The position numbers and the translations under genes are program-made. Below the pieces are notes generated by a model that saw nothing but the letters and a program-made list of their open reading frames with translations, did not search any database and was not told the origin of the DNA. From Methanimicrococcus sp. (lineage in GTDB: Archaea; Halobacteriota; Methanosarcinia; Methanosarcinales; Methanosarcinaceae), in the NCBI GenBank assembly GCA_009776675.1, contig WRNK01000051.1:1-7940 (forward strand): a DNA stretch of 7,940 nucleotides, given 5' to 3'. Within the stretch, counting starts at the first letter, position 1. Every line of letters begins with the position of its first letter. Of this stretch, positions 2 through 2,382 are shown piece by piece.

Positions 2-1213
2 GATGAAGATGGCAACGGCAGGCCTGACGTCCTTGATACCTACTGGGATGTCATCTACAACGATAACGGCGGTAACGGCGATGGTCCTGCCACTGAAAAT
101 GTAGCTGTTCAAAACGGCTATGTTCTCAATACCACCACATTACCCACTCATGTACCGGACAGCGGTATTGATGTTGTCTTCGTTGGCTGGAGCACCACAA
201 ATGTTGCCACCATCCTAAGCAAGACGGACACCTTGCCGGTAACCATAACGCCAATTGTTGATATTGTCAACACGGACGTTACCGTCTATGCTGTTTGGGG
301 CTATGATGAAAACAGTGACAATGTTGCCGATATTTTGGAAGGAAAATACACACTCACTTACAACCTTAACGGCGGCACGGGCGGTCCCAGCCCGAACTCT
401 GTTGTCCATGTCAATGGTACCTATGCTCTTTCCACCACCGCTCCGACTCGCACGGGTGGTATTGTCTTCATCGGCTGGACAGCTACGCAGGACAATACTA
501 TCTACAGAATGAATGATACCACTGCTCCGATCACCATTCCGAATGTCAATATTAATGGTGCGAATGTCATAGTTCATGCGGTTTGGGGCTATGATGAAAA
601 CGGTAATGGTGTTGCTGATATCTTGGATCCAAAATACAGCCTGAATTACGACCTCAACGGCGGCAATGCAGGCACCGGTCCGATTCCAAACCCCGTTACG
701 ACTCTGGTTGACAACAAAATCTATACTCTCTCTACCACTGCCCCGACTCATGCTCAGGTCGGTGGTATTGATGTGGTTTTCATCGGCTGGACGGCATCAC
801 AGGATCTCACCACTTACCTCCGAAACGACACAGCTCCGATTACCATTACGCAAATTTACATCTCAGCTAATGCTGATGTCTATGCCGTTTGGGGCTTTGA
901 TGAAAACAGCAACGGTATTGCTGATGTTCTGGAACAGCCTGTTCGACCACCGGGCACCGGCTTTGGCAATGCAACGATTGTTCCATTCGGCGGCGGTGCA
1001 ATGCCCGACCCGCAACCTGACCCGCAGCCTGAACCACAGCCTGATGATATTCGTGTCAACGATAGCAATGCCTCCAACAACAGCAAAATAGATGATACTC
1101 CTCAAAAAGCAAGTTGGGTGACATCTCTCATATTGATTTCGCTCATCGTCCTTGATATCATCCTGTTTATGTATCGGAGAAAATATGGTGACCGAGTCTT
1201 CAATGAAAAATGA
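2..1213 (+). CDS. Membrane-anchored surface protein with InlB-type (Listeria-Bacteroides) repeats, 5' end outside the window
   Basis: The frame is open from base 2 to the TGA at 1211-1213, giving 403 visible residues; the true start lies upstream. I see three full repeats of about 96-102 residues. Each starts with a Y-x-L-x-Y-x-L-N-G-G-like strand, has a central STTAPT and VFIGWTA segment, and ends in AVWGYDENGNGVADILD. The NGG...GW pattern matches the Listeria-Bacteroides (InlB B) repeat family. The acidic D-x-N-x-N-G-x-x-D tail resembles calcium-binding thrombospondin type 3 or dockerin loops. After the repeats come a Gly/Pro linker, a Pro-Gln run (PDPQPDPQPEPQPDD, 1004-1048), a Ser/Asn-rich stretch, one hydrophobic segment (1112-1174) and a short basic tail starting RRK. 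This predicts an extracellular repeat stalk anchored by a C-terminal helix with a cytoplasmic tail. Adhesion is a family-based guess. No PGF-CTERM-type sorting motif is visible. The TTG at 233 is an internal Leu codon, not a start. Confidence 0.85.
   Translation, partial: DEDGNGRPDVLDTYWDVIYNDNGGNGDGPATENVAVQNGYVLNTTTLPTHVPDSGIDVVFVGWSTTNVATILSKTDTLPVTITPIVDIVNTDVTVYAVWGYDENSDNVADILEGKYTLTYNLNGGTGGPSPNSVVHVNGTYALSTTAPTRTGGIVFIGWTATQDNTIYRMNDTTAPITIPNVNINGANVIVHAVWGYDENGNGVADILDPKYSLNYDLNGGNAGTGPIPNPVTTLVDNKIYTLSTTAPTHAQVGGIDVVFIGWTASQDLTTYLRNDTAPITITQIYISANADVYAVWGFDENSNGIADVLEQPVRPPGTGFGNATIVPFGGGAMPDPQPDPQPEPQPDDIRVNDSNASNNSKIDDTPQKASWVTSLILISLIVLDIILFMYRRKYGDRVFNEK
38..934 (+). repeat. Three tandem ~100-residue coding repeats of the surface protein
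   Basis: The repeats cover 38-340 (101 residues), 341-628 (96) and 629-934 (102). The end of a further copy lies at 2-37. Each ends in a related acidic loop: DEDGNGRPDVLD, DENSDNVADILE, DENGNGVADILD and DENSNGIADVLE. The copies are also similar in DNA, for example around the segments encoding VWGYDEN. They are therefore plausible substrates for recombination that changes repeat number. Repeats 2 and 3 match the InlB-type consensus best; repeat 1 is more diverged (VIYNDNGG). Confidence 0.85.
1112..1174 (+). other. C-terminal transmembrane segment of the surface protein
   Basis: About 21 hydrophobic residues (SWVTSLILISLIVLDIILFMY) precede RRK and a 12-residue tail. The positive charges after the helix favour the tail inside and the repeats outside the cell. 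An Asp lies within the helix, which is slightly unusual. Confidence 0.75.
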
Positions 1214-1214
1214 T

Positions 1215-1249
1215 AATGGGCGAAGAAGATGATTTCTTCTTCTCTCATT
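1215..1249 (+). terminator. Short hairpin S1 just after the surface protein stop; possible terminator or 3'-end structure
   Basis: The left arm 1215-1229 (AATGGGCGAAGAAGA) pairs with 1235-1249 (TCTTCTTCTCTCATT) over 15 positions, with one C-T mismatch and one G-U pair, around a five-base loop (TGATT). The inner eight pairs are perfect. It starts two bases after the TGA stop. No long T-run follows, so an intrinsic-terminator role is uncertain. Confidence 0.55.
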
Positions 1250-1270
1250 CCTTCAATAAAAACGATGGTG

Positions 1271-1301
1271 AATGAAGGAGATACCTCCTCCTTCTTTCAT
1301 T
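1271..1301 (+). repeat. Short hairpin S2, paired with long hairpin A
   Basis: The left arm 1271-1280 (AATGAAGGAG) pairs with 1292-1301 over ten positions, two of them G-U, around an 11-base CT-rich loop. It runs into a TTTT stretch. Its right flank (TTTCATTTTTGAAA) matches that of S3, which marks the two as copies of one element. Confidence 0.6.
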
Positions 1302-1378
1302 TTTGAAATAGATCATGACGGGAATAATCAAACGAGCAACACCATAGTTTGGTCATTCTTCTCACGATCTGTTCCATA
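1302..1378 (+). repeat. Long hairpin A of the array
   Basis: The arms 1302-1333 and 1347-1378 pair without gaps over about 32 positions with a handful of mismatches. The core is 1311-1333 against 1347-1369: 17 Watson-Crick pairs, 3 G-U pairs and 3 mismatches. The loop at 1334-1346 is GAGCAACACCATA. It is the most diverged of the four units. Confidence 0.7.
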
Positions 1379-1383
1379 AAAAC

Positions 1384-1412
1384 GAGTGAAGAAGACCCTC
1401 TCTTCTTCACTC
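1384..1412 (+). repeat. Short hairpin S3, perfect 12-bp stem followed by a T-run
   Basis: GAGTGAAGAAGA (1384-1395) pairs perfectly with TCTTCTTCACTC (1401-1412) around a CCCTC loop. TTTTT follows at 1414-1418. Viewed alone it looks like a textbook hairpin terminator on the plus strand. In context it is the first half of the S3+B compound unit. Confidence 0.75.
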
Positions 1413-1414
1413 AT

Positions 1415-1499
1415 TTTTGAAAGATGAGGTCATGGAATAACCAAAGGTACACACACACGATCAATTTGGTTATTTCTTTCATGATCTTATCTTTCAAAA
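1415..1499 (+). repeat. Long hairpin B of the array
   Basis: The outer stem pairs 1415-1433 with 1481-1499: 19 contiguous pairs including two G-U. After a four-base bulge (1477-1480) the stem continues as 1434-1445 with 1465-1476, 12 pairs including one G-U. The loop 1446-1464 holds a CACACACA run. This is the longest, most complete stem of the array, about 31 pairs. Confidence 0.8.
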
Positions 1500-1527
1500 T
1501 AGAACATTCCTGTCTTTGTTTTTTAAA

Positions 1528-1591
1528 GAGGCCATGAGGGGAATAACTGAATAAGCACACACATTCGTTTAGTTATTCCCCTCATGATCTT
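1528..1591 (+). repeat. Long hairpin C of the array
   Basis: CATGAGGGGAATAACT (1533-1548) and AGTTATTCCCCTCATG (1571-1586) form 16 perfect pairs. Four further inner pairs (1549-1552 with 1567-1570) include two G-U. Outside the core, a C-A mismatch is followed by four more pairs. The loop 1553-1566 is AAGCACACACATTC. Confidence 0.85.
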
Positions 1592-1630
1592 ATTTTTCAG
1601 GATAGGGTATTCTTATCTTTGTTTGTTTTT

Positions 1631-1699
1631 TAGAGGCTATGACAGGAATAACCAAATAAACAACACACCATCGTTTGGTTATTCCTCTCATAATCTTTG
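1631..1699 (+). repeat. Long hairpin D of the array
   Basis: The arms 1638-1657 and 1673-1692 pair over 20 positions with one internal C-C mismatch. A C-A mismatch at the same relative place as in unit C is followed outward by six more pairs, three of them G-U. The loop 1658-1672 is AAACAACACACCATC. Confidence 0.85.
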
Positions 1700-1847
1700 T
1701 ATTCATCATAAATGGCTTATCATTTTTTAAACAACAAAGTTGCCCGATGATCGCAAAAATTCAAATCCGTTCTGTTTTTAAGAATCAGGCCACACAATTT
1801 TTTAAATAAATGCCGATTTGACCCAAAATTTCGGGTTGCTGATTTTA
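1700..1847. other. Intergenic remainder between the hairpin array and the nadM 3' end
   Basis: No convincing open frame or RNA gene is visible. The only structure I note is a near-palindrome ACCCAAAATTTCGGGT at 1821-1836, which folds slightly better on the minus strand. It lies downstream of nadM on that strand and may help terminate the nadM transcript. Confidence 0.4.
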
Positions 1848-1850
1848 AAT

Positions 1851-1865
1851 TAAAAATAAAAAAAG
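1851..1865 (-). terminator. Oligo-T terminator after nadM
   Basis: Read on the minus strand, the bases directly after the nadM stop are CTTTTTTTATTTTTA. Archaeal RNA polymerase commonly terminates at T-runs of this kind without a hairpin. A weak palindrome at 1821-1836 follows farther downstream. Confidence 0.65.
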
Positions 1866-1866
1866 A

Positions 1867-2381
1867 TTATCGGTCGGTACCCGATACTCTTTTAATGCGG
1901 CAAATGCCGTCGATATTGCGGATCACACCCGCAACTGTTGGTGGAACAAATTTTTCCCACTCCCCCTTTTTGCTGTCAATCATGGATTGGCGAACAGCTG
2001 TTCCGGAATAAATATTTCGTTCATACATGGCAGGGCGGCGTACTTCGATGCCGGCTTCCATGAATAGCTGTATGACAAGCGGATTGTTGGAATAAACGAT
2101 GTCAAACTTTGGAGACATGGACTTGACGTGGGAGACCCATAAAGAGTTGTATTCAACATCTTCAAGAGGGATGATGTAGTGGCGAATCGGGAAGTCTTCC
2201 AGAGCCTTTAGAACCATCTCCACGCGCTCTCCCGCAGTAAACGGATCGCGTGTGGAGTGGCTTTTTTGAGCACTGCCAATACCAATTACAATTTCATCGA
2301 CTTCTTCTGCAATTGTTTTAATTATTTTGTCATGTCCCAAATGGTAGGGCTGAAAACGCCCGACATAGAATGCGCGAATCA

Positions 2382-2382
<1 letters not shown>
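1867..2382 (-). CDS. nadM: Nicotinamide-nucleotide adenylyltransferase, archaeal type (NMNAT)
   Basis: This 171-residue enzyme would transfer AMP from ATP to NMN to make NAD+ in the cytoplasm. The sequence carries the nucleotidyltransferase signature GRFQPYHLGH at residues 8-17. It also has the archaeal NMNAT block IGSAQKSHSTRDPFTAGER at 35-53, VYSNN at 96-100 and the late YSGTAVR motif at 125-131, where the family has an ISGT/YSGT-x-x-R nucleotide-binding element. The length fits the archaeal family, about 170-180 residues. The ATG at 2382 overlaps the TAA of mer by one base (TAATG), and a GAGG ribosome binding site lies seven bases upstream within mer. It is therefore probably cotranscribed and translationally coupled with mer. 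The product supplies a general cofactor, so no direct functional tie to mer is needed. A T-run follows the stop. Confidence 0.93.

Follow-up and report, generated by a model that had tools for sequence, protein, structure and literature searches.

Consecutive transcription terminators and alternative 3′ UTR isoforms are known from Methanosarcina mazei, a methanogen of the same family as the source of the DNA analysed here, and from Methanococcus maripaludis. Several consecutive terminators per gene are reported to be common in archaea, where U-tracts drive termination together with aCPSF1 and a hairpin is not strictly needed (PMC8716108; PMC7237163, the latter relaying the M. mazei data second-hand). 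One Haloferax volcanii reporter is described in which a hairpin stopped 59% of transcripts (PMC7237163). Among repeated palindromes, REPs are given as 20-40 bp long and of high copy number, and BIMEs as alternating in orientation (PMC3733652; PMC2817692). Prokaryotic satellites, recorded in Methanosarcina and others, are local head-to-tail repeats; those of Methanosarcina are described as mostly having units shorter than 30 nt or coding for protein repeats, and transposition of non-coding satellites as rare (PMC6749651). The words hairpin and inverted repeat do not occur in the main text of that satellite survey (PMC6749651).

Positions 1215-1699 of the window, that is the whole 7,940-base stretch of DNA that we analysed, consist of four composite hairpin units of about 105 bases that follow one another head to tail behind a surface-protein gene. 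With the consecutive archaeal terminators, this array would share several U-tracts in a row behind one gene, from which alternative 3′ ends would follow. The known terminators, however, are reported as U-tracts for which a hairpin is not strictly required (PMC8716108), whereas in the array the stops would be tandem copies of one long-stem unit. Like REPs and BIMEs, the array places imperfect palindromes side by side in an extragenic region, but its units measure about 105 bp, share one orientation and are known from one site. As a series of head-to-tail copies of one unit it is a tandem repeat or satellite, and it differs from the satellites described for Methanosarcina in that its unit is a strong palindrome. 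Among the open-licence papers listed on Methanosarcina palindromic repeats and on archaeal palindromic tandem repeats near convergent genes, no title or abstract opening describes an element of such a layout, and no paper on Methanimicrococcus hairpins turned up. We tentatively interpret the array as a lineage-private tandem amplification of a composite 3′-end unit that would present serial stops and barriers in the plus-strand transcript of the surface-protein gene.

The array begins 2 nt past the stop codon of the surface-protein gene and takes up 485 of the 653 bases that separate the end of that ORF (stop at 1213) from a convergent gene, in agreement with the earlier note, which had described it as filling most of the gap between two convergent genes (Table 1). 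From its domain, we take the convergent gene to be nadM (nicotinamide-nucleotide adenylyltransferase-like). The ORF list of the window contains no frame of at least 60 aa inside the array. The surface protein carries Listeria-Bacteroides repeats, and by eye its translation displays a proline-rich stretch and a C-terminal membrane segment. Further genes in the window are presumably mer-like (a name taken from those of the matched proteins), elp3-like, thiD-thiN-like, LSm and L37e. The Mer protein is 80% identical to a protein of a 3.4-kb metagenome contig and 73% identical to that of Methanimicrococcus blatticola, which identifies the source as an uncultured relative of Methanimicrococcus.

Table 1. 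Features of the array and its flanks in the window. Pair counts of the long hairpins are for each hairpin folded alone on the plus strand; energies are predicted.
Feature	Coordinates	Strand	Pairs	Energy (kcal/mol)	Further evidence
Surface-protein gene, 3′ part	2..1213	+			ORF; Flg_new PF09479, 4.2e-09; TIGR02543, 21.8 bits
Short hairpin s1, GAAGAAGA/TCTTCTTC	1215..1249	+	14	-16.0	
Short hairpin s2, GAAGGAG/CTCCTTC	1263..1305	+	16	-17.4	T-tract 1300-1304 at right end, partly paired in fold
Long hairpin A	1300..1380	+	25	-22.8	Palindrome score 19.1; T-tract 1300-1304 at left edge
Short hairpin s3, GAAGAAGA/TCTTCTTC	1378..1418	+	17		Right end is T-tract 1414-1418; terminator-like match 1384-1412
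Long hairpin B	1411..1503	+	37	-35.1 on plus, -23.7 on minus	T-tract 1414-1418 within outer stem
Spacer x1, short hairpin absent	1504..1524	+			Ends in T-tract 1519-1524
Long hairpin C	1525..1594	+	24	-32.8	Palindrome score 20.2
Spacer x2, weak short hairpin	1598..1631	+		-6.1	T-tract 1626-1631
Long hairpin D	1631..1699	+	25	-25.9	Palindrome score 19.2
Probable own 3′ end of nadM	1842..1893	-			Weak palindrome 1861-1893 over stop (score 10.5); terminator-like match on minus strand; T-rich tract just downstream; outside array
nadM-like gene, convergent	1867..2382	-			CTP_transf_like, 6.8e-19; 79-85% identity to counterparts in six closest genomes

Each composite unit runs from a short hairpin (s2 and s3; absent or weak before C and D) through a T-tract to a long hairpin with an AC-rich loop. 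Long hairpins had been noted before at a spacing of 105-113 bp, and we recovered all four, with unit-to-unit steps of 113 (A to B), 106 (B to C) and 105 (C to D) and with innermost pairs at 1332/1348, 1445/1465, 1551/1568 and 1656/1674, respectively. The three shorter hairpins, which had been taken to be of one type, also exist and all lie in the first half of the array; two of them have GAAGAAGA/TCTTCTTC arms, but the middle one (1263-1305) is built from GAAGGAG/CTCCTTC instead. Every long-hairpin loop contains an ACAC core (CAACACC, ACACACACAC, CACACACA and CAACACACC), and the loops are mostly unpaired in the predicted fold of the whole array (0.73-0.88). Hairpin B is interrupted by a 4-nt bulge, with blocks of 22 and 9 pairs on its two sides and further pairs towards the inside and the outside; four bases that match the bulge on its right arm are absent from its left arm. 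In addition, B has paired flanks (TTTTGAAAGAT/ATCTTTCAAAA) and an outward arm extension (GAAAGAT/ATCTTTC) that is partly present in the other units. These extended arms suggest an ancestral near-perfect palindrome.

Hairpin folding of the array is far above chance. As RNA, the plus strand of 1210-1710 is predicted to fold at -183.3 kcal/mol, where shuffles average -104.1 (z -14.6), and the minus strand at -168.0 kcal/mol, where they average -107.5 (z -11.0); for neither strand was any of 100 shuffles as stable. Hairpins that score at least 19 number seven in 1.26 Mb of related DNA and three within 400 bp in the window. A wider scan, over 2.43 Mb of related genomes, turned up hairpins of still higher score in one sister species (33.5 at most), so the hairpin strength of the array is rare, not unique. 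The array is also a tandem amplification. Direct repeats recur within it at a spacing of 103-117, TRF assigns it a period of 103 with 2.5 copies at 75%, and the sequence shared among the units points to an origin by tandem duplication. A covariance model scored the four units from which it was built at 81.5-104 bits and their complements at 27-40 bits; all four units are thus in plus orientation, and the alternation typical of BIMEs is absent. We rejected a CRISPR array, since over 37 nt the copies match the reference copy at 68-81% identity, and the spacers that follow B and C also belong together (a 60-nt family, 78%).

Upon comparison of the units with each other, the inner 24 pairs of C and D show five differences in the left arm and three in the right arm, and all three right-arm changes (positions 4, 13 and 19) are matched by left-arm changes that keep a Watson-Crick pair. 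This overlap of changed positions has a hypergeometric P of 0.0049 in one of six unit comparisons, the remaining five giving P values of 0.24-0.60, which are not significant. Across A-D, the inner 24 pairs contain 12 G.U cells and 4 A.C cells on the plus strand, an excess that leans towards plus-strand RNA, with the proviso that G.U cells are not independent because the units share ancestry. Correction of a quasi-palindrome at the level of DNA, in which one arm is copied from the other, could yield the paired changes between C and D too, and unit C fits such a process. The main rival explanation is a neutral palindromic satellite: the unit would have been multiplied from a quasi-palindrome by replication slippage or template switching, one arm would sometimes have been re-copied from the other, and pairing would have been kept without function. 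We consider it nearly as likely as an array of serial stops. At positions 12-14, unit C has perfect pairing in the place where A and D have a C.C mismatch in common (position 14), as arm-templated correction would give, and unit A carries several unmatched arm changes. Against it, the G.U pair of unit C at position 3 directly adjoins the doubly changed pair at position 4, and correction by tracts should have perfected the G.U pair unless the latter is younger.

The plus strand of the array contains five T-tracts of at least five bases (1300-1304, 1414-1418, 1519-1524, 1593-1597 and 1626-1631), a number not clearly above the 2.8 seen in shuffles, and their mean unpaired probabilities are, in this order, 0.49, 0.28, 0.80, 0.88 and 0.51. 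All except one are in register, at or just before the left edge of a long stem, a regularity that follows from duplication alone. Three of the four in-register tracts are partly paired in the predicted ensemble and would to that extent be hidden in the predicted fold. A terminator-like scan of 1100-2000 returned seven matches versus 0.7 in shuffles, three of which lie inside the array at two sites, 1274-1294 and 1384-1412.

As far as the searched collections reach, the array is private to this lineage. The earlier note had called for a covariance-model search of related genomes; against the 81.5-104 bits of the units, the best match elsewhere reached 30.1 bits in the 111 family genomes (stricter filters, 36 candidates scored per genome; eight genomes with a match at E ≤ 1). 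The best score was 25.4 bits in the six closest genomes (L001-L006, corresponding to G001-G006; five Methanimicrococcus and one Methanosarcinales archaeon), five of which had a match at E ≤ 10. Both of these searches scored a limited set of candidates per genome (36 or 150). In 126 loci of relatives, 2.47 Mb read whole with default filters, the best of five matches at E ≤ 1 again reached 25.4 bits. BLASTN of the array gave only weak matches in the six closest genomes (best E 0.087), and the 7.9-kb window holds no second site, the next best model score being 15.1 bits. Among 237 class genomes, with two candidates scored per genome, one 36-bp match (E 3.4e-4 per genome) fell in the T-rich spacer of the array; by eye, its surroundings contain no array, and we took it as chance. 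Phage and plasmid collections had no match to the array, so we dropped an origin from either, and the stem pattern occurred in viral contigs at two single sites without an array. No Rfam family matched the window at its gathering score, which set aside a known RNA family.

None of the four relatives with 650 nt of flank (L001, L003, L004 and L005) has the array after nadM; in L002 the sequence ends at 35 nt of flank, and L006 was not matched by the motif used. The L001 flank contains one hairpin (score 15.4). A crude motif rule selected nine surface genes with repeats in relatives; none has at least three such hairpins behind it and three have one or two in the 3′ flank, so that a tie between the array and the surface-gene family is not supported. 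The earlier note had named absence from every other genome of the genus, together with the lack of a transcript, as the mark of a private neutral duplication; the array is absent from the related genomes that we searched. This lack of copies in related genomes is in line with a neutral satellite.

The layout, by contrast to the sequence, recurs in sister species and leans to convergent gaps. We surveyed hairpins in 2.43 Mb of six genomes (1.20 Mb from M. blatticola, and 10 kb only from one genome), with genes called by a simple longest-ORF rule; this survey and that of tandem arrays leave out L003, which overlaps L317, and L001, whose stretch lies within a larger contig that was surveyed. Strong hairpins are about 7-12 times denser in intergenic DNA (0.72-1.21 per kb) than in coding DNA (0.097 per kb). 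Gaps between convergent genes hold 81 in 67.2 kb (1.21 per kb), those between divergent genes 74 in 102.4 kb (0.72 per kb) and those between codirectional genes 183 in 241.9 kb (0.76 per kb). The resulting rate ratios are 1.67 for convergent over divergent (nominal P 0.00097) and 1.59 for convergent over codirectional gaps (P 0.00045), P values that are optimistic because hairpins cluster and yet were treated as independent. Counted by gap, at least one strong hairpin occurs in 66 of the 246 gaps between convergent genes, in 58 of the 285 between divergent genes and in 156 of the 976 between codirectional genes. Convergent gaps make up 246 of the 1507 gaps and contain 30 of the 142 intergenic tandem repeats of relatives. 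Strongly folded tandem repeats of relatives (TRF, z ≤ -5) number seven, three convergent, two divergent and two codirectional, and two of the seven flank one gene in L298. When we added by hand the L267 array, inside which the gene rule had put a 116-aa ORF, four of eight strongly folded arrays were convergent and four divergent or codirectional.

The clearest folded tandem arrays all come from Ca. Methanimicrococcus labiotermitis. L267:4072-5168 lies behind a peroxiredoxin gene, which a second gene faces convergently, and consists of 4-5 copies of a 232-bp unit that combines several hairpins with AC-rich stretches. It resembles the window array in its composite multi-hairpin unit, AC-rich single strands, tandem arrangement, convergent gap and restriction to one of six genomes; its unit gave six BLAST pieces in the six genomes, all at its own locus (G006:C3:44072-45168). 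The two arrays nevertheless show no clear sequence relationship: in local alignment, 121 of 200 shuffles were as good on the plus strand, and 10 of 200 on the minus strand, a borderline value that is the best of six comparisons. L247 and L006 likewise bear no clear sequence relationship to the window array when local alignments are set against shuffles. L006:5916-6087 has three near-perfect palindromes (CCGTCCGCGCGCGGACGG type) at a spacing of about 61 bp between an MFS gene and a convergent elp3. In L298, a 35-bp palindromic unit forms 17 tandem copies (12896-13484) before a YhcG/DUF1016 PDDEXK nuclease gene and eight copies (14593-14867; array span 14576-14866) after it, the latter in a convergent gap; an mcrC-like gene lies beside this locus. 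The L298 repeat may be a nuclease-associated palindromic array. Its 35-bp pattern also has three matches at one place of another genome (G005:C91).

Other repeats and palindromes of relatives deserve a separate record. At L299:4541-4723, a 41-bp tandem repeat of 4.5 copies (z -5.0) lies between an aminotransferase gene and a convergent Nre gene. L305:8061-8133 is a lone intergenic hairpin of Ca. M. labiotermitis with long near-perfect arms (AAGTAACATAAGTTA type), and L301:15799-15867 is a long palindrome (AATTATATAATTATCTGTAACAA...) that has shorter hairpins close by and lies in an extended gap, convergent according to the simple gene rule. L105:1508-1692 contains three 60-bp tandem repeats with a small hairpin, AGGAAT-CAACACACA-ATTCCT, upstream of an opposite-strand ORF, and its loop (CAACACAC) resembles that of unit D. 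We rejected L105 as a distant relative and claim no homology: its stems are about 6 bp long, its scores do not exceed 24.4 bits, and every one of the 111 family genomes contains the loose pattern GGAAT..ACAC..ATTCC. L103 and L104 contain other repeats and were rejected as well.

For a neutral satellite, it counts that the arrays of sister species are unrelated in sequence and locus and that tandem repeats are reported to be abundant in related Methanosarcina, mostly with short or coding units (PMC6749651). A hairpin density that is higher between convergent than between divergent genes is, on the other hand, not expected of plainly neutral DNA, and weaker purifying selection could contribute to it. 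Most of what we observe would also result if palindromes grew neutrally and selection were relaxed between convergent genes, and for this reason we favour the functional interpretation with reserve.

Dispersal fits less well. We consider it improbable that the array is one site of a mobile palindromic family, REP/BIME- or MITE-like, that is multiplying in this genome. Its units form one family of imperfect palindromes and lie in intergenic DNA 3′ of a gene, a usual place of REPs and BIMEs, and the paired flanks of unit B would allow an original element that was an almost perfect palindrome, each arm measuring about 35 bp. Palindromic elements are also reported, by a permissive tool, to be widespread in archaea (PMC12306157). 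Among the seven window genes examined, none encodes a TnpA/RAYT transposase. Yet all four units share an orientation, and no match outside the array, in the window, the 126 loci (25.4 bits) or the six closest and 111 family genomes (30.1 bits), approaches the units. Two observations favour local amplification: the window has no other strong match, and the nearest analogue, L267, occurs at a single place in its genome.

The earlier note had also proposed a multi-hairpin small RNA. One such RNA, or several almost identical ones, might sequester a protein or target RNA through the repeated AC-rich loops, which agrees with the ACAC core of all four mostly unpaired loops and with the loop of the L105 hairpins. 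We give it little credence: we recognised no archaeal promoter by eye before the units, and the L105 stems are short and score low with the model. A conserved RNA is unlikely, given that Rfam had no match at the gathering score and that neither the six closest genomes nor the 111 family genomes gave a model score near that of the units.

We return to serial stops and 3′-end protection, which combine best with the position of the array. Repeats of a T-tract and a stem lie right behind a stop codon and face a gene with its own T-rich end, an arrangement best read as a series of stops that also protects the 3′ end and shields nadM. It agrees with the structured 3′ UTR suggested earlier, the most likely of the three ideas then offered and one with which our results are compatible. 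From these features we infer transcription through the array, termination within it and protection by it. The U-tract of each unit would provide a site for archaeal termination of the aCPSF1 type, the hairpins would make RNA polymerase pause and would shield the 3′ end against exonucleases, and the array as a whole would block antisense transcription that runs into nadM. For this mechanism we count the stronger folding on the plus than on the minus strand, the paired changes between C and D, the in-register T-tracts, the terminator-like matches, the excess of hairpins in convergent gaps and the arrays of Ca. M. labiotermitis between convergent genes (L267:4072-5168, L006:5916-6087 and L298:14576-14866). 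Against it, folded arrays also occur between divergent and codirectional genes, and none of the nine related surface genes has a similar 3′ array. Moreover, because archaeal terminators do not strictly need a hairpin, four long stems exceed what termination requires.

On the scale of the genus, arrays of palindromic units, each at a single locus and preferentially between convergent genes, might arise repeatedly and independently in Methanimicrococcus species and turn over in sequence and place while their hairpins are kept. Such arrays would stop transcription from both sides, so that neither of two convergent genes is reached by transcripts of the other, and would form a structure-conserving, sequence-free class of archaeal 3′ elements, a generalisation that we regard as rather unlikely. 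If serial stops are the correct explanation for the window array, archaeal 3′ ends would gain strength by copying a whole unit of hairpin and U-tract, which would explain how related species come to have a common layout without a common sequence. In that case the array would also offer a clean test of whether long hairpins, which U-tracts do not strictly need, add to archaeal termination or to the stability of 3′ ends. A neutral array would remain a clear example of how palindromes can drive tandem growth in the genome of an archaeal genus.
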